Below are positions 1 to 19,441 of a stretch of 20,241 nucleotides of DNA, one piece after another. The translations under genes and the position numbers were made by a program. Below the pieces are notes generated by a model, which had not been told where the DNA came from, made no database searches, and was given only the letters and a program-made list of their open reading frames with translations. This DNA comes from Nitrospirales bacterium (GTDB taxonomy: Bacteria; Nitrospirota; Nitrospiria; Nitrospirales; UBA8639): NCBI GenBank assembly GCA_029261305.1, contig JAJDBO010000248.1, positions 1 to 20,241 of the forward strand, in the 5' to 3' direction. The stretch's first letter is position 1, and every line of letters begins with the position of its first letter.

Positions 1-1608
1 CTCACTGAAGCTCGCCGTCGTATCCACCGCCGTCGCATCCCCAAACGTCGCAATCCCTGTCGCCGGCCCACTGAATTGACTCCACATCGTGGTCACCGTC
101 GCGGGCGGATTTGGTAACCCATCATCCGTTACCGTTCCATCGAGATTGGCCACGGCTGGCAGGATAATCGTTTGGTTCGCCCCCGCATTTACCGTCGGTG
201 CTTGGTTCCCCACAGACTTGTTAATTGTAAAGGTATCAGTAATATCTCCGTCAGAAGCTCGAATATTTTGAACAGTGAGACTGTTTCCATTCACATCCAT
301 CAGTACAGAGCCATAAGCCGACTCAAAGGTATACATCACAGGATGCCCTTGAGTAATAGGCCCACCAATATTATGTCCACCATGACCCGCGACGATATAG
401 ACTGAACCGGAGGTGTATGCCCCGGTGCCAGATGGGTTGCCGTCTCCTGTATTGAGAATGTTTCCATTGGCCTGCAAGGTGGCTAAGGGCGGCGTGACAA
501 AATTTGGGGCAGTGCCATAACCAAAAGCTCCGCTCAAAGGAAACGATCGCTCATAATTGTGGGAATGCCCTCCAAGAACAAGATCCACTCCACCTGCTTC
601 CAAAGTAGGCAGTACGTCCTCACGCATATCGACAAGCCGGCCACCAGAATCACCGGAGAGTCCTCCACTGTCCGAATCATGAGTGCCTTTTGAATAGGGG
701 GGATGATGCCAATAAGCGATCACCCAATCTTGACTCGTGAGCGCGAGATCGGCCGCCAGCCAATCGATCATATCCTCCTTCGCGATTAGATCCTGGGTAG
801 TATCCATGGAATCCAACACAACAAAATGAATGTTGGCATAGTCGTATGAGTAGTACGCCTCGGTAGATGATGGCTCACCTCCTGCTTCCCCATTTGTAGG
901 AAGAACATGGGCCTCGTAATAGGGACCCATCTGAAGGCTGGTATCGACAGATCTGGCCTCGTGATTCCCCAGGGTTGGATAGACAGCCGTATTGCGCAGA
1001 ATGTTTTGAAAGATATTAAAATGATTGGTCGTAAACTCAGAGTCTAGCCCATCGTCGTAGGCAATGTCCCCCATATGAATAAAGAGGTCAGGAGGGTTCC
1101 CAGCAGTCTCTGTGAGCATGGAATTACGAACCTGTATTTGGTTGGCCCCGCCATCACCAGAATCTCCAATTCCCCATATCCTAACGGGTGTGGCCGAACC
1201 CACAGTCGGCGGGGTCACAAAGTTGTAATCTACCGTGCCGGTACCTTCGGCGCCTCCACCTTCCACACCACCACTTGTTGTGCCAAAGTTGTAGAAATAT
1301 TGTGTGTTCGGTGTTAACCCAGTGATCGTGATGATATGATCTAGCACATTTCCATTCGAGGCAGGAGGCACCGCCACACCTGTCGCTTCCTGGTTAAGAT
1401 CATTGACATCGGTGCCATATTGTATGCGGCTATCCGTGGGATCAGTCGAATCAGTTCGCCAGACGATCGTCATCGACGTCGGTGTAGGCATCTGAAGATA
1501 GGATTGTCGTACAACTGCACTCAAGGCAGGCACAACAGATGTCATTAACATCAGGAGCATACAGCTAAAGGCTAATGTTCCTTGAATGATCCGATTCGCC
1601 GGCTTCAT
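1..1608 (-). CDS. Secreted purple acid phosphatase-like metallophosphoesterase with PKD-like tail (C-terminus cut by window edge)
   Basis: The reading frame is open for 536 codons from the ATG at 1608 to the left edge, so the C-terminus is missing. The start has a strong ribosome binding site (AAAGGAGAG, 3 nt before ATG). Residues 1-31 form a Sec signal peptide ending near PALSA. Residues about 35-135 look like the fibronectin-type N-terminal domain of purple acid phosphatases. The catalytic domain shows the family's metal-ligand blocks in order: GDSG (148-151), GDIAY (180-184, with the iron-binding Tyr), GNHE (214-217), the HHPPY block (301-305) and GGHSH (346-350). From about residue 469 a PKD-like immunoglobulin fold begins ([14 protein letters not shown]) and continues past the edge. 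Known for the family: hydrolysis of phosphate monoesters at a binuclear metal centre. Inferred: an exported phosphatase acting in the periplasm or outside the cell. It lies 38 bp downstream of the TPR gene and is probably co-transcribed with it. The substrate is unknown. Confidence 0.9.
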
Positions 1609-1646
1609 ATTCTCTCCTTTTGAATGTGTTCTTTGATTTCCCATGA

Positions 1647-2648
1647 TTACCTGCCCTCCAAAGACGCCAACAATTCCCCAGCCTCTGCGTAGAAGGGCGC
1701 CACCTGAATAGCCAACTGAAGATCACGTTTGGCATCCTCCAGACGACCCATTGAAATTAATACTTTCGCTCTATACACCCTGTGAAGCGCTGTTGGCCTC
1801 TTACCCAATGCCCGATTAGTTTCGACGAGAGCTCTTTCCCTATCGCGCTGTGCGGCTTTGACCTGTCCCTTTAACGCCCACAACTCGGCACGTTTGAGAT
1901 ACCAGGGAGCCTTTACTCTCACCCGTGCGATTTCCTCGTCGATGAGTCTCAATGCCACGTCATATCGATATTGCGCCGTCTCCGCGCGAATGAGAGCTTT
2001 TTTCAGCGAAACCTTGTTTCCCAACTGCGAAAGGCCTTCACGATAGCCTAATGCTGCAGCCTCAAGATTTCCCAAACTTTCCTGTGCCTTCCCCCGAGCC
2101 ATAAACAATCCAGCCCGTGGCTCTTTTTGAATCGCGTTGGTGAAGTCCAAGATAGCAAGACCTTCTCGCCCCGTACGTGCACGAATATGACCACGCGCCA
2201 CCAAAGCCATCATTGAATCATTCAATTCCTGGTCGAGGAATTGATCTAGCACCACCTCTGCATCCACATCACGACCCAGAGCAGATAAGGTAAGACCGCG
2301 TTCCAATAAAATGTTTGAATTTTCTGGATCCAACTCTGCCGCTCGATTTAAATCATTTAATGCTTCAAGATAATTCCCATTTGAGCGATAGAGTTTGCCG
2401 CGTTTGACCCAGAGATCTATGCGTTCCGGTTCTTCTTCTAAGGCCTGCGTTTGGTCCTCAATTTCGTGATCCGGGGAAGTATGGGCAACCGTTTTTTCGA
2501 CGGACACCATTCCCCACGCGACAATGGCGAGGAAAGAAAATACCAAGGTCGCACCTTGGCAATGCTTACAAATTGCATGGAATCTACTGCCTGCCGTTTG
2601 AGGGTAGGTTTCCCTACCTATTCGCGCTAAGGGATTAACTTGATCCAT
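1647..2648 (-). CDS. TPR-repeat protein with N-terminal membrane/signal segment
   Basis: The product is 333 aa. I chose the ATG at 2648 because GGAGGA sits at the right distance upstream. The open frame extends to 2732, but that 28-residue extension is very basic and lacks a ribosome binding site. Residues about 33-50 are hydrophobic ([16 protein letters not shown]) and could be a signal anchor. The segment before it carries a CKHC motif at 27-30, which could be a metal or redox pair but is not a haem motif. From about residue 75 to the end the sequence is a run of tetratricopeptide helices; [20 protein letters not shown] and the [20 protein letters not shown] segment are typical. TPRs mediate protein-protein contact. 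The gene directly precedes the secreted phosphatase, so the two probably form a transcription unit and the TPR protein could be its partner; that link is inference from position only. Confidence 0.85.
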
Positions 2649-2949
2649 TTTCCTGTCCTCCTCCTTCTCCGAATGATGCCGGCCTGAACCTTGTTCCCCG
2701 CTCAACTTCCTTCGGCGAAGATGTTTCTTCAAACTGGTTCCCTAAAATAAATATTGTTTTTTTTTCTAATGCAGATTTGTAATCACTCACGACCAAAAAT
2801 GAAGAACTTTTTTCATAGTCTAATTATTTCTCAAGTCTTTTCCTGAGCTGCGGCCTCTCATGCCGCTCTAACATCGGGAAACTGTGGCTTTGATTGATCT
2901 CGGCCAAAGACAAGTGAGATCGCGCCCATCAAAAGACCTTTCCGCAACC

Positions 2950-2989
2950 AATGGTCTATATATCTTCTTAGGGTGATACCCAGACCATT
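2950..2989. repeat. Nested inverted repeat (possible RNA hairpin)
   Basis: AATGGTCT at 2950-2957 pairs perfectly with AGACCATT at 2982-2989. Inside the loop GGGT (2971-2974) can pair with ACCC (2978-2981). No T-run follows on either strand, so this is not a standard terminator. On the minus strand it would lie in the long leader of the TPR gene. Confidence 0.35.
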
Positions 2990-3514
2990 TGTTCTTGATT
3001 AAATGATGTAAGATTAGGTGGCTAGAGGGGAAAACCTTCTATACCATGGAGATCATCAAAAGGAAGGTTGAACTGCAAACTTTGGCGATCTGCCCAGATA
3101 AATTTTCTGTGCATTTTTTTATCGAATACCGCAGGGGCACTACTCAAGATTAAGAGTGGAATCGAAATTTCTATTCAGCATTACCACACAATTGGGAATA
3201 CACCCCCAAGATTTAAGGAAGGATATTCCACTCCTCTGGAATAGACCAAAAAGGGAAAATATTTTTCTGTGGTTATGTCTGAGGAAGTTTAAACCAGGAA
3301 TAGAGATGGCGTGAAAATTTTACCAATAATATTTGCAGATTTGGCTACAGAAATTTTTTAGAATTTTGGCACCCTCTTCCTCAAGATTGGAATTGACACA
3401 TCCAAACATTTTTTGAAATATGAAAATATTTATGAAGAAAGTAAAGGATAAGGTGAAAAATCAATCGAAATTTTGGGGAGTTTTTTCTTGAAACTTATTT
3501 ACTGTATATAGACG

Positions 3515-3524
3515 GGCTACCGCC
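3515..3524 (-). promoter_or_regulatory. ops-like element (candidate NusG/RfaH-paralogue recruitment site)
   Basis: The minus strand reads GGCGGTAGCCCG here. The Escherichia coli RfaH recruitment signal (ops) is GGCGGTAGCGTG, so the first nine bases are identical and 10 of 12 match. The core can form a GGC-GGTA-GCC hairpin in the non-template strand, as the E. coli element does with its GC-GGTA-GC core. It lies about 460 bp downstream of the gene for a NusG/RfaH-like protein, on the same strand, and about 870 bp before the TPR gene. A nine-base match can arise by chance, and the recognition sequence of this paralogue is unknown. Confidence 0.3.
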
Positions 3525-3981
3525 ATTCACAGACATCGCCTGACATCACTGACCATTTTCAAATTTCAAACAATCGCCTCCTGCGATTATATTCAGCCTC
3601 CTGCAATAATTTCTACAAAGAATGTCTCTTGGTAGTAATTCTTTGGTGCGCTATTTAGTACAAAACTCCAATGAGTTTAACCAGGGGAAACCCTAGTTTT
3701 TGAAATTAACCTCCCACCAGAAAAATTCTCTTCTAACAACCCCTTTGTGTTTGATGGGCCAATATTACTCCACCAGCTGTGCTGACATTTACGACCTCTC
3801 CCCCGAATCGAACGATGGTCATTTTGGTAGTAATTGTCAGCAAAACTAGCACTTCGTCTATATTTAATCAGAATGAAATTGTATTCACAATTAGCAATTC
3901 ACCCTATCCCTGCAGAGTAACCCCAAGTAAAAGACATCCTGGCAAAGGAAATGCAATCCCATCTCAAATTTTCACTGTATC

Positions 3982-4473
3982 TCAAATTTGTCCTATCAAC
4001 TCACGTTCAACGATGACCCGAGCACTATACGACACTGTCTTCAGAAGGAGAGCGACACGTTGAGTACCAGTTAATTCTTTTTCAAACACGGCACTAAGAC
4101 CCTTCAAAGGACCTTCTTGAATTCGAACGGTTTGACCGGTCGTAAATGAACCCATTGAATTCGATAGACGACCTTCTTCCAACCGTTTTTCAATTATTTC
4201 AATAATCTTTTCGTCCACTCTTGCAGGGACTGCCCCAAACATCACTACATTGGAAACTCCATGTGCATAAGCGACCTTCCGATAATCCGTTTGGAAATTG
4301 AACTTTGCAAAAAGATAGCCAGGGAATAAAGGACTTAATATTGTCTGTTTTTTTCCTCGGATTTGTTTGGTCTCTTTAAGCAGGGGACAGAAGGAGCTTA
4401 CCTCAAATTGTTGAAGATTCCAGTCCGCAACTTTTTCCTGACGTGGTTTGCTTCGCACCAGATACCAGTCCAT
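3982..4473 (-). CDS. NusG/RfaH-family specialised transcription antiterminator
   Basis: The product is 163 aa, almost the length of E. coli RfaH (162 aa) and shorter than most housekeeping NusG proteins. The N-terminal NGN domain begins MDWYLVRSKPRQEKVADWNL, the usual 'WYxxxxKxxQE' opening, and contains SPLFPGYLFAKF followed by VSNVVMFGAVPARV, standard NGN features. The C-terminal half (about 108-160) contains a KOW-type segment (TGQTVRIQEGPLKGLSAVFE). Known for the family: NGN binds the RNA polymerase clamp and suppresses pausing and termination in long operons, often for polysaccharide genes. Position at the end of an export gene group supports that role. It is not the housekeeping nusG, which would sit next to secE and the L11/L1 ribosomal genes. 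It is separated from the wzc-like gene by about 400 bp containing an IS remnant, so it may have its own promoter. Confidence 0.9.
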   Translation of the reverse strand: MDWYLVRSKPRQEKVADWNLQQFEVSSFCPLLKETKQIRGKKQTILSPLFPGYLFAKFNFQTDYRKVAYAHGVSNVVMFGAVPARVDEKIIEIIEKRLEEGRLSNSMGSFTTGQTVRIQEGPLKGLSAVFEKELTGTQRVALLLKTVSYSARVIVERELIGQI

Positions 4474-9715: not shown

Positions 9716-10975
9716 TCAACGTGTAGGAATGGACCCGTTTGATTGAAAATGAAACTGATGGACTTCCCCTGCATCGGGCATTTCGTGAAGATCTCCGTAG
9801 GGAGACCCTACAAATAAGTAGGCGCCGGCACCAGCCATGGAAAGCCCAAACAAATCCGCCACACCTGTGGTTTTTGAAGGATTTGGTATGGTGTGTTGAA
9901 GTTTCCCACTAAGTTCATCAAAAACATACACCGTTCCGGCATCTACCCCTGCCAGATCATCGCCAGGCGCGGCAACCACGTAATACTCACTTAGGAGCGC
10001 CACCGATTCCCCAAAATGATCTCCTTTCTGGGGATGAGGGGCCAGTAGTCTTTTCTGAAACTCTCCGCTTGGTGAGAACAAATATGCCGCACCGGCTTCC
10101 GGAAGTTTTGTCCCTTGCCCTAGGGCTCCGACCAACAAGGATTCAGGACCACTCGCCAAGGACCACCCGAAATATTCGTTGGGTTGGGGTTCGGTGGATT
10201 CGAGTATTCGGACAAGCTTGTTGGTTTGAACATCAAATAAATATACCTTTCCCTGATCAATCGGTTTGTCTCCTCCTAATGGAGCACTAATCGCAAGTGT
10301 CGACCCCATAAATGCCAGGGCATGGCCAAACCCATCAGGTTTTCCGTGCTGAGATTCAGGAGCTAAAAACGTTTGCACCAACGATCCCGTGGTCATGTCA
10401 AATACATAAACTTCTCCGACTTCGAAATTCGTCGGTGAACTTGCGCCTGGATCTCCAATTGCCACCCATGAGCCATGAGTAGTGATAGCATGACCAAATA
10501 CTGCTGCTGTGGGATTGGGACTCACAAGCTCCCGAACTAACATCCCACTGTCTCGATCAAATACCGTGACCCTCCCTGCTGGCCGCTGAGTGTTTCCCAT
10601 TCCCCGTGGAGCCCCAACCACCACAAACTGATCGGTCAACCCCACGGACAGACCAAATAAATCATCTCCGACAGGTGAAGTAGGCAAGAAGGTGTGAATG
10701 ACCTGGCCTGTTGCCCACTCCATTAAGAGCGCAGTTCCCATTTGGCCACGTGCGCCAGACGCATGCGGTGCCCCCACGACTACCGCATTTCCATCGCTGG
10801 CAACAGCAAATCCAAATCCATCCAACAAGGTTGGTTTTGAGGCATGAAGGCTCACCTGTTGCTCATAATGGTGTTGTCCCCAAACATGTTGGTCAAAACC
10901 AACTAAGCACATGGCAAGGAACACCACCGTTTGGAAAGGAATCAAGCTGGAGTGCATTCTTTTAAGGGTGAGCAT
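9716..10975 (-). CDS. Secreted FG-GAP repeat protein (predicted seven-bladed beta-propeller)
   Basis: I chose the ATG at 10975 (419 aa, MLTLKRMHSSL) because GAGGAG lies 10 nt upstream; the frame reaches 11038. Residues 1-33 are a signal peptide ending VWGQ. The rest is seven tandem units of about 52 residues starting near 54, 106, 159, 214, 267, 319 and 373. Each begins with an FG(F/L/H/W/E) pair, followed by a 'VVVGAP' strand and a 'G.VYVFD..TG.LV..' strand. This is the FG-GAP pattern found in integrin alpha propellers and many bacterial extracellular proteins. Seven units would close a propeller. Likely role, by analogy only: cell-surface or extracellular binding. It lies upstream of the exopolysaccharide genes on the same strand but about 400 bp away, so common transcription is uncertain. 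Confidence 0.85.
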   Translation of the reverse strand: MLTLKRMHSSLIPFQTVVFLAMCLVGFDQHVWGQHHYEQQVSLHASKPTLLDGFGFAVASDGNAVVVGAPHASGARGQMGTALLMEWATGQVIHTFLPTSPVGDDLFGLSVGLTDQFVVVGAPRGMGNTQRPAGRVTVFDRDSGMLVRELVSPNPTAAVFGHAITTHGSWVAIGDPGASSPTNFEVGEVYVFDMTTGSLVQTFLAPESQHGKPDGFGHALAFMGSTLAISAPLGGDKPIDQGKVYLFDVQTNKLVRILESTEPQPNEYFGWSLASGPESLLVGALGQGTKLPEAGAAYLFSPSGEFQKRLLAPHPQKGDHFGESVALLSEYYVVAAPGDDLAGVDAGTVYVFDELSGKLQHTIPNPSKTTGVADLFGLSMAGAGAYLFVGSPYGDLHEMPDAGEVHQFHFQSNGSIPTR

Positions 10976-11038
10976 TAACAAGGAGCTCCTCTTGGGCAAA
11001 CTCAACATGTTGGCACTGAGAAGAAGAGAAATTCTCAA

Positions 11039-11289
11039 TGGGGTAATTCACTATCTTACCATGCTGCCAGAAAACAATCCCAACGAGGATAGAATTTCAA
11101 TTCCATGAACCCGAGCACCATTTCATATCGAATCCATATTCATAATCCTTTTCGCGCCTTCCGATTCCTCTAACTAGTTCGAAGAAGCTACTGCGGACAA
11201 ATGGTCAGTGTCCACTTTTAATCCGATGAACCGAACACGGTGATACCTTTGCTATAAAGGTGAAGCTTGACTTCGTGGATAGCCTACGA
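11039..11289. other. Intergenic gap between the STAS and FG-GAP genes
   Basis: About 315 bp to the chosen FG-GAP start. It contains a 6-bp hairpin (ACCTTT..AAAGGT, 11245-11261) after the STAS stop and GGACA..TGTCC near 11195-11213. Neither is followed by a T-run on the minus strand. No gene is seen. Confidence 0.4.
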
Positions 11290-11601: not shown

Positions 11602-11851
11602 AGAGGTGACCTAGAAGAAGGAAGAAATTCTATCTTCTTTGGACTATGCCCCAAGAATGGGCTGGCTACCATTAGCTGTTTGACGTATCTAGAGATAGGG
11701 AAGCAGTAGCACCAACAATCCAATAAAAAAATCACTGCTATCGAAAGTTAGCAGCAGCACTCGGAATCCCCGTGTGCGAACGTCCTGATGAACCACAAAT
11801 TTCATGAAGAAGGAAGTGACTAGACTGACCAAGCGAAATGAAAAAGAGAAT

Positions 11852-11899
11852 TTTTGGAGCGGGTGAGGAGATTCGAACTCCCGACCAACGGCTTGGGAA
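11852..11899 (-). repeat. attL-like duplication of the tRNA-Gly 3' part (left end of integrated element)
   Basis: These 48 bp are identical to 15564-15611, which covers the intact tRNA-Gly gene from its anticodon loop through the T arm, acceptor 3' strand and encoded CCA plus three following bases. Identity stops exactly at the anticodon loop (TTCCCAA), a common crossover place for tyrosine recombinases acting on tRNA genes. The copy lacks the 5' half, so it cannot encode a tRNA. Same orientation as the intact gene. Confidence 0.85.
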
Positions 11900-11976
11900 T
11901 ACGCGAAGGGGAATTGCTTAAACGCTAGTAAACACGGGCAATTCTCCTCCACGCCTACACAGGTATGCACTTGGTT

Positions 11977-12051
11977 CTTTGCCTGACTTTGCCTCTCTTT
12001 GCCGCTCACCCACTCTGGTTGGCCCTATTTCTAACACCTATTTAACACCTA
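11977..12051. repeat. Helically phased short repeats inside the left junction (integrase/excisionase arm-site candidates)
   Basis: CTTTGCC occurs three times with exact 10-bp spacing (starting 11977, 11987, 11997). TAACACCTA occurs twice with 11-bp spacing (12032 and 12043). Short direct repeats spaced by one helical turn within about 200 bp of a recombination core are typical of arm-type binding sites for tyrosine integrases and their directionality factors. The role is inferred from position and spacing; no cognate protein is present. Confidence 0.45.
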
Positions 12052-12212
12052 CCAATTTTGCCAGAACAAAGAGGGGGGGTATCAAGCCAATGAGGGTGGG
12101 TGCCGAATGAGGACTCCTCGGCCTAGCACTCTATCTGGCCACTTCTCAAAATAACAGAGACATTATGGATAGCCATTAGGACTCTTGAGGGCAAGTGGAG
12201 GGCCTGAAAACG

Positions 12213-12719
12213 TTAACTTAGCTTTTCTCTAGATTCCATTTCTCGAAACAAGTCCCCCCACGGCTTCCTCAAAGATATATTCATGTCCCGTTGCAGGTCG
12301 TTTATCTTCACCTCGAATTCGTCGTTGGACGGACCAGTGGACTGAGCATCCCACCCTTTAATGAGTTCGGCGAATTTTTCCATTGCGTCATTGACCAGCC
12401 TGTCCTCGATCACGCTCATTTGCCCATGGTAGAGATTAAAGAAATCCTGTCGAGCCTTCTCGCCTTCCATAGTGTCAGCCCTGTGTCGACAACGGGCAGC
12501 CGCATCAGCCGCAACAAGGTATACACGCATGCGTTCGTTCCAAAAATGACCGTATAGCTCCCTCTTTCGGGTGTCACTATACTGTCGAGCTCCGAAAAAG
12601 GCTCCAAGCGCGACTAATACTCCCCCAGCCAACTTGATTAGAAGATCTCCGGCTTCATACCAGCTTATCTGACAGATTCCCTCCAAGAGTGCCTCCACTA
12701 GTAGTGCATATTTTTCCAT
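12213..12719 (-). CDS. Hypothetical protein with one N-terminal membrane helix
   Basis: The product is 168 aa and I do not recognise the family. Residues about 24-45 (GDLLIKLAGGVLVALGAFFG) are a single membrane helix with a short outside segment before it. The following basic residues (ARQYSDTRKRE) put the C-terminal part in the cytoplasm. The remaining 120 residues are charged and predicted helical, with aromatic-rich FWNERMRVYL and a coiled stretch EFEVKINDLQRDMNISL. The layout resembles small membrane-anchored proteins found in accessory islands. There is no clear ribosome binding site before the ATG at 12719. It lies inside the tRNA-bounded element and is its best-formed gene besides the propeller gene. 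Codon pattern and lack of internal stops support real coding. Confidence 0.6.
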   Translation of the reverse strand: MEKYALLVEALLEGICQISWYEAGDLLIKLAGGVLVALGAFFGARQYSDTRKRELYGHFWNERMRVYLVAADAAARCRHRADTMEGEKARQDFFNLYHGQMSVIEDRLVNDAMEKFAELIKGWDAQSTGPSNDEFEVKINDLQRDMNISLRKPWGDLFREMESREKLS

Positions 12720-12888
12720 AAGATTTGATAAGGCGATCTCGCTTCTTGAACATTGCTTAGCGCTTCATTTTCACACCTTCCCTTAGGCATCCATCATGAT
12801 TCATCGGGTACTCTGATTTATTGGCGTGCACTAAATTCAACTCCCGAATGCCCCACTTTTCTGAATAGCGTCCAATAAGCATGTATAA

Positions 12889-13209
12889 TTATTCACCATC
12901 ATCACAAGACATAGATCGGAAGTCTTTAGCCTTTCGTTCAGCACGGAGCGTGTTCTCTGCTTCAATCCCCTTTGTATGGGCAAAATGATACATGCGCCCT
13001 AAGAGGACACCCCGTTTGTCGTAGGGAAGCTCAAAACCCAGCTCTCTTAAGCCATTCAGTAAATATGAAAATTCAATGGTCTCATGAATGATCAGATCAC
13101 ATCTGGTTGTTCCCCAACCTGAATAAGGGGACGCTTCCCTTTGCTTTCTCTCCCAAGCTCTCCATTGAGGCCGGCATTGAATTGATAGCAAACCTTGCAT
13201 TGATATCAC
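12889..13209 (-). pseudogene. Chimeric ORF: repeat-derived start fused to a gene remnant
   Basis: The frame is 106 codons. The first 29 or so (MISMQGLLSIQCRPQWRAW and on) are encoded entirely by one copy of the 91-bp repeat (13123-13213), which also occurs outside this ORF. The rest (LNGLRELGFELPYDKRG, then YHFAHTKGIEAENTLRAERK) looks protein-like and may be the C-terminal part of an older gene whose 5' end was replaced when the repeat entered. I do not recognise this part. The ORF lacks a good ribosome binding site. It could still be expressed, but I treat it as a remnant. Confidence 0.35.
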
Positions 13210-13213
13210 GTCA
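13123..13213. repeat. 91-bp direct repeat, copy 1
   Basis: Matches 15351-15440 with three substitutions and one single-base insertion, about 95 percent identity, in the same orientation. The first part contains AAGGGGACGCTTCCCTT, itself an imperfect palindrome. The two copies bracket the propeller-protein gene. Such dispersed copies suggest a small repetitive or mobile sequence; the family is not identified. Confidence 0.8.
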
Positions 13214-13281
13214 AAAAGGGTAACATCCCCTCTTCAGGTCTAGCTATCGAATTTTGGGGCTCTCATTCACTCAGCACAGGG

Positions 13282-14772
13282 TTAGTTGTTGGGCCACTTC
13301 TTTTTCAAGTACTTAAACAGCCGCAGCCATTTCTCATGATCCTTCGAAAATTTCAATTTCCCTTTCAAACGAGGATTGGCCATCCCAGCATCGCCCCCAA
13401 TAGCGAGAAAAATATCGAGTGGATTAGGAGTGCCTGTTAAATCGATTTTCTTCGCTTCAGCCTTAAACGAAAATTTCTCAGACCCAATTTCCTTGATCGC
13501 CATATTCACCTTAACACCACTGACCACTCCATCAAATTTATATTTAGACCCCACAGCCACAAAAGAACCAGCGGAAATACTGACTGAACTCATACCAACA
13601 CCGACCACCACATTATCCGTAGCAAGGTTGATCCCGTTATTGTCTGGACCAAGTGTAAATTCACCCTCGACTTTAAACCGATCATTCATACCGCCCTTCT
13701 TATCAAACATGATCTCGGCTTTTTTTAGGGTAAAATCTGAAAAAAACGGCCCTTTACATTTACCTGCGTTGTTTTTGTGGCAAATCATTACCTTCTTGTT
13801 GAACTTCGGGGCGACCGCTATGCCTCGGAGTCCCAGGGCGAGGAGGTCCCCTGCCGTCACCGTAGCAAACGTATCAGTCCATGGGTTGATACGAATGACC
13901 ACAGGTGTTTGATCAGGTAATGCGCCCGCAACAAGAATGTTTCCATTTGCCTCCACAGCCACATCCGGGAAGTATTCGCCCTCCAAAAGCGCTATAACGG
14001 GGGAGGCGACACCCGTGACCTTGTTAATGCGTATCACTATAGTCGAATCGGTAAAATCATCTATACCAGCCACAAGGAGATCACCATTTGCGGCGAGTGC
14101 AATTTTGTGTGAATCGCGAAGACTGCTAATATTAGGAGGAGTAAGAGAAAAATCTATGGATAAAATTGATTCAGCAGCTGTAGTCCGGTCAATTTGCAAC
14201 ATGTCAAAACCTAAATGTCGGATAGCCCAAATTGTTCCGTTGTCCACTAGTAGAGGAGCTATTCTATCAGTGGTCGAAAAAAGGGTTTGACTTCCTGTGT
14301 CAGCATCGATCCTAACGATTCCTAATGCGAAATTTGAAACTAGGATGGTTCCTTCTGGTTCGACGGCCATACCCAAAAATGTACCTCCCGAGGGATTCTG
14401 TGATAATAGCCCACCTGACGAAATAATGGATTGCTCACCAGTCATGCGGTCAATTTTGATCACTCTCCCAGTAGGAATGCCATCATCTAACCGTTGGGTA
14501 ATGAGCAGGTCCCCCTTTAGATCAAATTCCAGGTCGTGTGATATACCATCAGCTAGTAATCCATCTGAGGCATAGACGGATTGTTTGCCCGTTACCGGAT
14601 CAATTCTGACCAGTCTTGTACCTCCACTTTGCCCAATTCCGCGATCCATCCAGATAATATCCCCGGGAAAAATAGGGGGATCGGCCATAGCGGGACTCGG
14701 CGGAAATAGAATAGCTCCTACAATTATCGTCCAGGCGAGAACGTAGCTCCATCTATCGTGAATGAGTTTCAT
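13282..14772 (-). CDS. Secreted propeller-repeat protein with an unrecognised C-terminal beta domain
   Basis: The ATG at 14772 (496 aa) has a strong ribosome binding site (GGGAGG, 8 nt away); the frame extends to 14808 without one. Residues 1-30 form a signal peptide (LAWTIIVGAILFPPSPAMA). Residues about 45-325 hold six repeats of the type 'VRIDPVTGKQSVYASDGLL', 'KIDRMTGEQSIISSGG', 'RIDADTGSQTLFSTTD', 'QIDRTTAAESILS', 'RINKVTGVASP' and 'RINPWTDTFATVTAGD', giving a predicted six-bladed propeller of the NHL/SMP-30-like kind. After a Cys-containing link (KVMICHKNNAGKCKGPFF) comes a domain of about 130 residues (FKVEGEFTLGPDNNGI, then a basic end), rich in beta strands, that I cannot assign. No enzymatic residues are evident. 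It is the main cargo of the tRNA-bounded element and is flanked by the 91-bp repeats. Probably exported; function unknown. Confidence 0.85.
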   Translation of the reverse strand: MKLIHDRWSYVLAWTIIVGAILFPPSPAMADPPIFPGDIIWMDRGIGQSGGTRLVRIDPVTGKQSVYASDGLLADGISHDLEFDLKGDLLITQRLDDGIPTGRVIKIDRMTGEQSIISSGGLLSQNPSGGTFLGMAVEPEGTILVSNFALGIVRIDADTGSQTLFSTTDRIAPLLVDNGTIWAIRHLGFDMLQIDRTTAAESILSIDFSLTPPNISSLRDSHKIALAANGDLLVAGIDDFTDSTIVIRINKVTGVASPVIALLEGEYFPDVAVEANGNILVAGALPDQTPVVIRINPWTDTFATVTAGDLLALGLRGIAVAPKFNKKVMICHKNNAGKCKGPFFSDFTLKKAEIMFDKKGGMNDRFKVEGEFTLGPDNNGINLATDNVVVGVGMSSVSISAGSFVAVGSKYKFDGVVSGVKVNMAIKEIGSEKFSFKAEAKKIDLTGTPNPLDIFLAIGGDAGMANPRLKGKLKFSKDHEKWLRLFKYLKKKWPNN

Positions 14773-15171
14773 CTCAGGATCCTCCCGTGCAAAAGTGCAT
14801 AAGACCATCTATTTCTTTTCCTAACACCCGAATGCCGGCAAAGCTGGGAGCGCAAGCCCGTGCAGTTCCCGTCAGCTTGCATTGAGCAGCCACATTCACT
14901 CATCACACAGTGCCTCATCGTTTCGGCGCTGAGGGTTGCTCGTTTTCAAACACCAGCCCCAAATTGTACTACCATCAGTCCTAAGAAATCAGCACATTCC
15001 CACTACCTAAAAAGAGGGGGGTGATTCCCATATCAAAGAAGGCTCACGATTGGCACCAATGGAGGCCGATCTATGGGGTAAGGAATGATGAGGCAGATAC
15101 ACGGCTGAACGAGAAGTCCTTTACAAGGAATTGTGAGGGGCTTTTGTGTTTAAGGATGAGGAGAGTTTGAA

Positions 15172-15261
15172 ATGGGAACAGTTAAGCGAGGACTTTTGGG
15201 GTTGTTCAGTATCGTATTTTTGCTGAGTATTCTGCCACTTGGGAGTGAGGCGGGAGAATGA
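15172..15261 (+). pseudogene. Signal-peptide-like mini-ORF, possible 5' remnant of a lost secreted-protein gene
   Basis: On the plus strand, GAGGAGAG lies 6 nt before an ATG that encodes a 29-residue peptide: MGTVKRG followed by a hydrophobic run and PLGSEAGE, then TGA. The layout (ribosome binding site, basic N-terminus, hydrophobic core, small residues before the end) is that of a Sec signal peptide with nothing attached. It is the only plus-strand candidate with good initiation signals. Either the 5' end of a truncated gene or a genuine small membrane peptide. Confidence 0.3.
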
Positions 15262-15350
15262 AAATAGTACTTTAAAAACCATGCCAGCCATCAGGATCTT
15301 CGCGAAGATCATCAGCAACTGGAATACGACAGTCGGAAGACGCATGAATA

Positions 15351-15440
15351 ATAAGGGGACGCTTCCCTTTGTTTTCTCTCCCAAGCTTTCCATTGAGGCC
15401 GGCATTGAATTGATAGCAAGCCTTGCATTGATTCACGTCA
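15351..15440. repeat. 91-bp direct repeat, copy 2 (90 bp here)
   Basis: Near-identical to 13123-13213 in the same orientation, with one base missing and three substitutions. It lies 123 bp from the right junction of the tRNA-bounded element. Confidence 0.8.
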
Positions 15441-15566
15441 GACTACCCAACTCACCAACGGGATTAGGAGAAAGGTGCAGGTTTTTATTGAAAAAATCCC
15501 GTTAATATCAAATAAGAGTTCTTTTATTAGGAGCAATCAGTTTCAAATTGAGGAAGGAAGAAATTT

Positions 15567-15641
15567 TGGAGCGGGTGAGGAGATTCGAACTCCCGACCAA
15601 CGGCTTGGGAAGCCGATGCGCTACCACTGCGCTACACCCGC
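15567..15641 (-). tRNA. tRNA-Gly (anticodon CCC)
   Basis: The minus strand gives a 75-nt cloverleaf: acceptor GCGGGTG pairs with CACCCGC, D arm GCGC..GCGC, anticodon loop TTCCCAA with anticodon CCC on a stem of four G-C pairs (CGGC/GCCG; the fifth, outer position is T-T), T arm with TTCGAAT, discriminator T and an encoded CCA. It closely resembles E. coli tRNA-Gly(CCC). The 3' part (from the anticodon loop) is duplicated at 11852-11899, marking it as an integration site. It decodes GGG codons. It has its own promoter upstream and lies 83 bp after the tyrS stop. Confidence 0.95.
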
Positions 15642-15661
15642 TCAAATGGTAGAAGAGAGGC

Positions 15662-15691
15662 ATTCTAGACAGGGGTCTGACGGCAAGTCAA
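15662..15691 (-). promoter_or_regulatory. Sigma70-type promoter for tRNA-Gly
   Basis: On the minus strand TTGACT (15691-15686) and TAGAAT (15667-15662) are separated by 18 bp; each matches the consensus at 5 of 6 positions. The -10 box ends 20 bp before the tRNA 5' end, giving a very short leader, as is usual for tRNA genes. Confidence 0.75.
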
Positions 15692-15724
15692 GGCAGGGAA
15701 CAATCCGAATATGAGACCTTTCAT

Positions 15725-17473: not shown

Positions 17474-18877
17474 TCATTGACGTTTCGGGGCCTGATGTAT
17501 GGCCAACGCATGAACATCTTCGGCCGCTTCCATCAGAGCTTCGGATTGCGTGGGATGTGCATGAATCATTTCAGCCATCTGGGTAGCTGTGGCCTTCATC
17601 TGCATAGCCATGGCTGCTTCATGAACAAGATCCGCAGCATGAGCGCCAACCAAATGCGTTCCAAGAATTGCATCGGTTTCGGGATGGGCGATAACTTTCG
17701 CGAATCCAATGGTATCCCCTATAGCATGACTTTTCCCTAAACCTGCAAATCGGAATCGCCCGATTTTTGGCTCAATCCCTTGCTCGCGCACTTGCTGTTC
17801 GGTGAGCCCCACTCGACCGACTTCAGGAAGCGTAAAGATTCCTGCGGGAATCACCTCATAGTCGATGACCTGATCATGGCCCATAATATTTTCGACCGCG
17901 ACTTTTCCTTGGGCCGATGCCACATGAGCCAACATGGCTTTCCCCACAACATCCCCAATCGCATACACACCCGGCACATTCGTTTCCATTCGATCGTTGA
18001 CGGAAATTTCTCCACGCTCTCCCAAATGCACACCAGCTTTTTCCAATCCTAATCCCCTCGTATTAAAGCTACGCCCGACCGAGACAAGAATCATATCCGC
18101 ATCCACTGATGTTCCGTTTTCAAGAGTGACGGTTGCGGAAGTCTCACTTCGAGTGACTTTCTCCACTTTCGTTCCCATATAAAATTGCACTTTGCGTTTT
18201 TTAAGTTCTCGTTCAATGAGTGCCGAAACTTCGTCATCTTCAAGTGGCAGCAATCGTGGCATCATTTCAACGATCGACACTTTCGAACCCAGCCCAGAAT
18301 AGAGTGACGCGAATTCACAGCCCTCCACTCCACCGCCGACGATCAAAAGTTTTTCGGGAACACGTTTAATTTCCAAGGCCTCTTTGCTCGTGATAATCAT
18401 GCTACCGTCTATGGGGAACAGTGGAAGATTGGGCCATGATGAACCTGTGGCAAGAATAACAGCGTCGGCCTGAATTGATTCGGAGGTACCATCCGTTTTT
18501 TGCATGTCTACAGTTCGATCATTTTGCAGCGAACCGGTTCCATCGATATGGGTGACACCCCAACCTTTGAACAACGTGGCAATGCCTTTGACTAACCCCG
18601 TCACTACACGATTTTTTCGCTCTACCATTTGGATAGGATTCAATACCGTGGGTCCCGCAAGTGTCAGCCCAAGATCGTCAGCTTTTTTGAGTTTCTCGCT
18701 CAACTCGATCACGGACAATAAGGCCTTGCTGGGGATACACCCAGAATTTAGACAGACCCCACCTAAAGCTTGATTCTCAACCACGGTCACCTTTGCGCCT
18801 AGCTGGGCGGCACGAATGGCCGCGACGTACCCACCAGGACCAGCGCCAATAATCACGATATGCTTGGATTGAGACAT
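17474..18877 (-). CDS. lpdA: Dihydrolipoyl dehydrogenase (E3)
   Basis: The ATG at 18877 gives 467 aa starting MSQSKHIVIIGAGPGGY; an upstream in-frame ATG (18895) lies in the inverted repeat. FAD-binding GAGPGG is at 11-16, the redox-active disulfide GGVCLNSGCIPSK has Cys42 and Cys47, a second Rossmann motif VGGGVEGCEFA binds NAD, and the C-terminal HAHPTQSEALMEAA carries the catalytic His-Glu pair. The enzyme reoxidises dihydrolipoamide on lipoyl proteins of glycine cleavage and 2-oxoacid dehydrogenases, passing electrons to NAD. Its position right after gcvH points to glycine cleavage as one role. The only ribosome binding site (AGG, 5 nt away) is inside the arm of an inverted repeat beginning at the gcvH stop, suggesting coupled or controlled translation. 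Confidence 0.96.
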   Translation of the reverse strand: MSQSKHIVIIGAGPGGYVAAIRAAQLGAKVTVVENQALGGVCLNSGCIPSKALLSVIELSEKLKKADDLGLTLAGPTVLNPIQMVERKNRVVTGLVKGIATLFKGWGVTHIDGTGSLQNDRTVDMQKTDGTSESIQADAVILATGSSWPNLPLFPIDGSMIITSKEALEIKRVPEKLLIVGGGVEGCEFASLYSGLGSKVSIVEMMPRLLPLEDDEVSALIERELKKRKVQFYMGTKVEKVTRSETSATVTLENGTSVDADMILVSVGRSFNTRGLGLEKAGVHLGERGEISVNDRMETNVPGVYAIGDVVGKAMLAHVASAQGKVAVENIMGHDQVIDYEVIPAGIFTLPEVGRVGLTEQQVREQGIEPKIGRFRFAGLGKSHAIGDTIGFAKVIAHPETDAILGTHLVGAHAADLVHEAAMAMQMKATATQMAEMIHAHPTQSEALMEAAEDVHALAIHQAPKRQ

Positions 18878-18878
18878 T

Positions 18879-19058
18879 AGGACCTGAGAGAACATACCTT
18901 GAACATATCGCGCCAAGATTTGGGTCGAATTTGGACGGAACGATTGAGAAAAACCCGAGGCATAGCACAGCTCTGTTGAGGGTGTTTCGATTGAGGCCCG
19001 TTCAAAGACGGCCCGAAGATTGGATACGAGGTGTCCAAGGTATGTTCTCTCAGGTCCT
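18879..19058 (-). promoter_or_regulatory. Large inverted repeat filling the gcvH-lpdA gap
   Basis: The 22-bp ends at 18879-18900 and 19037-19058 are perfect reverse complements. Beyond them the two sides continue to match at roughly 70-75 percent for about 40 bp more, allowing small gaps. The outer end touches the TAA stop of gcvH (19060-19058), and the other ends one base before the ATG of lpdA. In the mRNA the lpdA Shine-Dalgarno AGG would pair with CCT just after the gcvH stop. Inside the loop a smaller hairpin (ACCC..GGGT) is followed by TTTTT on the minus strand. Likely roles: translational coupling of lpdA to gcvH, partial attenuation or mRNA stability. Confidence 0.6.
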
Positions 19059-19441
19059 TAGCTCTGCGAGGAAAGAAATTCTTGGTACTGCGCGGCGGTC
19101 ATCAAGCCATCAAGGTCGGCAGGATTTGAAAGTTCTAGGACGACAATCCATCCTTGACCATAAGGATCTTTATTGAGGTGTTCGGGATGGTCTTGAAGGT
19201 CGGTGTTGACTTGCACAATTTTTCCGCTCACCGGGGAATAGATACTGGACGTCGCTTTGGTAGATTCAACTTCTCCAATTTCTTGATCCTTTTCCAGCAC
19301 CGTGTCGATCTTCGGAAGATCCACAAACACCACATCACCAAGAGCCTCTTGCGCAAAATCGCTAATTCCAATGGTGACTTGTTGGCCCTCTTGTCGAACC
19401 CACTCATGCTCCTTGTGATATCGCAAATCTTCAGGAATCAT
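19058..19441 (-). CDS. gcvH: Glycine cleavage system H protein
   Basis: The ATG at 19441 gives 127 aa, the normal length, with AAGGAG 6 nt upstream; the frame reaches 19513 without a further good start. The sequence opens MIPEDLRYHKEHEWV, typical of GcvH, and continues GISDFAQEALGDVVFVDLP. The lipoylation site is Lys62 in VESTKATSSIYSP, followed by SPVSGKIVQVN and the NKDPYGQGWIV block. The protein carries the aminomethyl group on its lipoyl arm between GcvP, GcvT and Lpd. The downstream lpdA gene supplies the oxidising partner; gcvP and gcvT are not in the window. A candidate promoter lies 44-72 bp upstream of the ATG. Confidence 0.97.
   Translation of the reverse strand: MIPEDLRYHKEHEWVRQEGQQVTIGISDFAQEALGDVVFVDLPKIDTVLEKDQEIGEVESTKATSSIYSPVSGKIVQVNTDLQDHPEHLNKDPYGQGWIVVLELSNPADLDGLMTAAQYQEFLSSQS

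Follow-up and report, generated by a model that had tools for sequence, protein, structure and literature searches.

The locus considered here raises the question of whether a segment that is bounded by two copies of a tRNA 3' half and encodes no integrase is an integrated element and, if so, of what kind. It lies in a 20,241-nt stretch of a Nitrospirales bacterium (contig JAJDBO010000248.1, assembly GCA_029261305.1), which was analysed as a whole and is referred to as the window. We conclude that positions 11900–15563 are probably a member, lacking an integrase, of a family of tyrosine-integrase elements in Nitrospirota; the insertion sites of this family are the anticodon loop or the 3' end of various tRNA genes.

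Boundaries and contents of the element

The sequence-only reading of the window had claimed 48 identical bases at the two ends of the segment, and direct alignment of the two core copies (Table 1) confirmed this (48/48). A repeat search of the window extended the direct repeat to 11847–11899 and 15559–15611, with 98% identity over 53 bases. The tRNA-Gly(CCC) is the sole tRNA found in the window by ARAGORN and by Rfam, and the far copy corresponds to its positions 31–75 of 75, in agreement with the earlier claim that the repeat ends in the anticodon loop of an intact tRNA. The displaced fragment has the same orientation as the intact gene and lies on the side expected for a tRNA island. Such a match, 48 bases long and reaching from the anticodon loop to the final base of the tRNA, is not due to chance. 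Base composition does not distinguish the element (G+C is 46.3%, and 46.5% in the window).

Table 1. Positions of features in and around the element, in window coordinates.
Feature	Position	Strand	Source
Far core copy: displaced tRNA 3' half, anticodon loop to last base	11852..11899	-	Repeat search, alignment to tRNA
Hairpin between repeats and core	11902..11953	-	Pairing conserved within the family, with two-sided changes
Conserved distal module of about 150 bp, putative attachment arm	11904..12053	-	Covariance model; adjoins tRNA fragments across the phylum
CAAAG-type repeats of module	11976..12003	-	Sequence comparison
GGTGTTAAATAGGTGTTAGAAATA, two GTGTTA-type repeats of module, putative arm-type sites	12026..12049	-	Sequence comparison
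168-aa ORF	12213..12719	-	ORF list, protein database
106-aa ORF, doubtful; first codons within D1 repeat	12889..13209	-	ORF list
D1 direct repeat, second copy	13122..13204		Repeat search
508-aa ORF, probably exported (look of N-terminus)	13282..14808	-	ORF list, database matches
D1 direct repeat, copy also in L001	15350..15432		Repeat search
tRNA-proximal block inside the element, common to L001	15353..15563		Sequence comparison
Near core copy, 48 bp: tRNA 3' half plus 3 bp	15564..15611	-	Repeat search, alignment
Intact tRNA-Gly(CCC), target gene	15567..15641	-	ARAGORN, Rfam

The claimed absence of an integrase was also borne out. No Pfam family was found in the six ORFs in or overlapping the element (168, 106, 508, 94, 106 and 177 aa), no integrase profile matched any element ORF of at least 60 aa, and a tblastn search of 11800–15700 with 56 integrase sequences gave a best E value of only 0.098. 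An integrase remnant inside the element was therefore rejected. The element thus contains no integrase gene of the kind expected inside an island and, at its tRNA end, none of the kind that other members of the family described below carry there. Three interior ORFs that were compared with defence and phage profiles gave no match. Seven other database proteins matched the 508-aa ORF, four of which were annotated with NHL repeats, and the 168-aa ORF had a single protein-database match (99% identical, located on a 1.3-kb contig). The 508-aa gene is bracketed by the two D1 copies, suggesting a nested insertion or duplication. Relatives carrying the same contents, which the sequence-only reading had named as evidence against an insertion, were not seen: in 48 family genomes, with the six best candidates of each scored, the interior (12060–15340) gave only 47-bp matches or pieces of the end repeats, and none of gene length.

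A conserved module next to tRNA fragments in Nitrospirota

The first lead to the module was a match elsewhere in G001, the genome of a Nitrospirae MAG, to 75 bp that lie within the far end of the element. The module consists, in order, of GGTGTTAAATAGGTGTTAGAAATA, CAAAG-type repeats and a hairpin, followed by a few bases and then the tRNA fragment. The 24-base pattern GGTGTTAAATAGGTGTTAGAAATA was found with at most two mismatches in 4 of 295 genomes of the phylum. A covariance model built from seven sequences, the window among them, matched 78 of 395 Nitrospirota genomes at E≤0.1 and 84 places in 47 of these 395 genomes at E≤1e-6; matches at E≤0.01 occurred in 14 of 40 genomes from the family of G001, and family members were numerous in several genomes (up to seven module matches per genome). 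Two exact patterns gave no match in IMG/VR, and a single 151-base query taken from G220 gave none in collections of phages and plasmids; nor was the module found in G417, the one genome from outside the phylum (Deltaproteobacteria by its record). Besides, Rfam had no family for 11840–12100 at E≤1, and we found no description of the module in the open-access literature as judged by titles and the starts of abstracts.

We surveyed 63 module sites, comprising 60 of the 84 places at E≤1e-6, two weaker matches (in G148 and G205) and the window; three of the 63 were training-set sites, and leaving them out gives 60. At 53 of the 63 sites, and at 50 of 60 once the training-set sites are left out, a tRNA fragment started within 11 nt after the module; random positions in the same loci were near a tRNA fragment in 46 of 2000 cases. 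In the window, which is one of the seven training sequences, the module lies directly beside the fragment. The exact tRNA end was reached by 49 of the 53 fragments, of which 36 were 3' parts and 17 were 5' parts, and the best-matching tRNAs were Leu, Thr, Pro, Gly, Lys and Arg. Within the fetched DNA, 30 of the 63 sites had a second core copy, and many of the remaining 33 were cut by contig ends or by the limits of the 20-kb stretches analysed. An integrase was present at 24 of these 30 sites, at 17 as an ORF of at least 289 aa beginning within about 50 bp of the second core copy and at seven in partial or broken form; these seven cases show that integrase loss is a common course in the family. 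The six sites without an integrase were L182 and L183 (alike in length and repeat), L192, L203, L229 and the window. Where the second copy lay inside a tRNA called by ARAGORN (23 of 30 sites), 21 contained an integrase, whole or broken, and only L229 and the window had none. Because the module thus lies beside tRNA fragments and accompanies an integrase at 21 of the 23 sites with an intact tRNA, we infer that it is the distal attachment arm of a tyrosine-integrase element family, in keeping with the general picture of arm-type sites in integrase attachment sites. A tree of 19 integrase rows, in which several forks were moderately supported and one branch was very long, grouped Leu, Thr, Pro and Gly targets by clade. 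Nine sites that were added later had a tRNA fragment in six cases and a second copy in none. Neither these nine family sites nor six integrase contigs of G307 contained an autonomous element with an integrase and a tRNA-Gly(CCC) 3'-half core.

Two single sites may be recorded here. In L173 (G250:C1), two modules of the same orientation are 11.5 kb apart with one integrase ORF beside tRNA-Gly(CCC), an arrangement that looks like a tandem. In L012 (G001:C33), a 900-aa ORF at 1458–4160, just outside a module-bearing tRNA-Leu fragment, matches the PADLOC BrxD model (E 4e-19).

The hairpin adjoins the predicted crossover, and its pairing is kept through two-sided changes, which makes it a testable feature. 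Over the 63 sites (62 distinct), 81.3% of cells pair, compared with 34–50% in slid controls, and two-sided changes were seen at 11 of 14 pairs, compared with 3–9 such pairs in the controls; these statistics lean towards pairing, since the sites were found by a model that includes the hairpin. None of 500 shuffles matched the observed covariation score. The count of further pair types was reached by 89 of 500 shuffles and so did not exceed them. In a count of 44 sites picked by eye, 82.8% of cells paired and 9 of 14 pairs had a two-sided change. Folding was stronger than z = -2 at 51 of 63 sites and weak in L229 (z -0.5). The lambda sib site controls integrase expression. As the integrases of the family read towards the core, the hairpin would lie just downstream of the integrase in an excised circle and could, by analogy, control its expression in a similar way.

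Relatives of the locus and the search for an empty site

A scan with the neighbouring tyrosyl-tRNA synthetase gene gave four loci, the closest of which, L001 in G001, was 93% identical and had the same tyrS-tRNA-Gly order as the window. The earlier prediction of an empty site in such a relative was not supported in the form in which it was made. Similarity between L001 and the window continues past the tRNA to 15353, inside the element, and then stops; the shared block is identical at 105 of 131 positions outside the D1 repeat and at 71 of 80 within it. No far copy or tRNA fragment was present in the next 5.2 kb of L001 beyond this block, and nothing in L001 matched window DNA left of 11836. 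Joined flanks were seen neither in L001 nor in the 48 family genomes searched with the DNA of the window, nor is there a plain empty site in the window or in G001. Thus, the claim of an integrated element stood with regard to a pair of attachment sites of the tyrosine-integrase type, whose module marks tRNA fragments in many Nitrospirota, but the relative with the same gene order did not show an empty site of the expected form.

The surroundings of the tRNA differ among relatives. The left flank of the far copy matches the tRNA neighbourhood of neither L001 nor G308. Next after the tRNA, G308 has a STAS gene, a conserved 187-aa ORF and an LpxD gene; in G001 this set is on another contig, which continues into DNA containing a Mutator-type transposase ORF. 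The STAS gene of the window was considered as the native tRNA neighbour and rejected, being only 38% (G308) and 33% (G001) identical to the corresponding genes; it is probably a paralogue. Further along L001, a stretch is 78–83% identical to G311 and G325; the tyrS region of the window and that of G325 are only 73% identical, and this difference suggests that the stretch was acquired horizontally. In G174 the distance from the tRNA to the start of a downstream P4-type integrase is about 240 bp, and a protein start that looks closely similar by sequence is at the corresponding place in G297, indicating that the tRNA-Gly(CCC) site is a hotspot. The counterpart in G308 of the FG-GAP gene of the window (9716–11150) is at 962 kb, a long way from the tRNA-Gly of that genome at 615 kb; in G001 it lies on a different contig from the tRNA, next to a methyltransferase-like ORF. 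Similarity ends near window position 11150. This placement points to a rearrangement close to the element.

Three further observations concern repeats and tRNA variation in these loci. At L001 11511–11585, the T stem of the tRNA-Gly has two pairing-preserving changes, and the compared tRNA-Gly(CCC) copies with the same 5' part are without this pair. At L001 16571–16756, a REP-like GGGGACG...CCCTTT stretch precedes an ORF whose start resembles that of an IS200-type (Y1) transposase; D1 in the window opens with a similar motif. Finally, window positions 18872–18910 and 19027–19065, between gcvH-like and lipoamide-dehydrogenase-like ORFs, form 39-nt arms that are 85% complementary around 116 bp, and a similar stretch in G307 (L140 2544–2682, 80%) makes this possibly a dispersed palindromic repeat.

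Origin of the element and comparison with known systems

In the course of events that we consider likely, an integrase would have recombined the attachment site of the element with tRNA-Gly(CCC) in the anticodon loop. The tRNA would have been restored by the element's own 3' half, the old 3' half being displaced to its far position, and the module would be the distal arm of the element's attachment site. The integrase-bearing end seen in relatives was presumably once present; most likely it was deleted or replaced here, so that passenger genes remain between distal sites that are still intact. One feature fits a single insertion poorly. Under neutral drift of about 10% since the split from L001, the chance that the core copies would remain identical at 48 of 48 positions is about 0.006; the proximal block is identical to L001 at only 105 of 131 positions outside D1, yet the core copies are identical, so the two ends of the element may differ in age and may not date from one insertion. 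A composite history, in which an older proximal block (native or from an older island) is common to L001 and the module and far fragment came later, either by another insertion or through a rearrangement that placed the FG-GAP/polysaccharide locus alongside as well, would account for this age difference, and the displaced position of the FG-GAP gene in G308 and G001 and the D1 copies around the 508-aa gene point the same way. However, it requires several events, of which no intermediate was found, and we regard it as a tentative possibility, somewhat short of even chances. It overlaps with the preferred reading, and the probabilities that we attach to the two do not add up to one.

Integrase loss has also to be weighed against a non-autonomous passenger, a mini-element that retains only attachment sites and is moved by the integrase of another family member in the same cell. 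The identical core copies, the well-preserved module, the second integrase-less case (L229) and the genomes with many family members would all suit a passenger. However, no integrase with a tRNA-Gly(CCC) 3'-half core was found at further family sites or on the G307 integrase contigs, and the broken integrases at seven other sites make decay a sufficient cause; we regard a passenger as rather unlikely. An assembly artefact joining two places with a common tRNA half is far less probable still: contigs in this lineage do often end near such repeats (e.g., G307:C338), but an artefact would not put the family module exactly beside the fragment, as it is at 50 of 60 other sites. Beyond the preferred reading of an integrase-less family member, we may add a broader speculation, to which we give little weight, that the module is a portable attachment cassette kept as integrases move from one tRNA target to another and from one tRNA half (5' or 3') to the other, with integrase-less elements such as those of the window and L229 being minimal passengers mobilised in trans. 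The module provides a means of detecting mobile elements in Nitrospirota and of placing their ends, and it raises the question of how a single attachment design has come to be used with several tRNA genes and with either tRNA half.

Within the family, elements at tRNA-Leu(CAG) in G207 (L018, 4.6 kb) and in G220 (L019/L090) share with the window a module at the distal end and a tRNA fragment next to it, and differ in having an integrase beside the tRNA. The G220 element also encodes Rep_1, an excisionase-like HTH_17 protein and an S24-type repressor, and its integrase was flagged as having one stop within the matched stretch. The closest parallel in lacking an integrase, L229 (G416:C5), has an intact tRNA-Thr(CGT), a clean 46/46 core repeat and the module, and differs from the window in its smaller size (1434 bp), its tRNA and its weak hairpin. 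With the tRNA islands of Islander, the element shares ends marked by a tRNA gene and a displaced fragment, a crossover at the anticodon loop or the T-arm/acceptor end and, in its relatives, tyrosine integrases; it differs in having no integrase, which Islander requires (PMC4383910). The proportion of 5' fragments also differs, with 17 of 53 in the module family and 159 of 3919 islands in Islander (PMC4383910). Elements like that of the window are dropped by searches in which an integrase is mandatory, as it is in Islander; the non-coding module identifies them.
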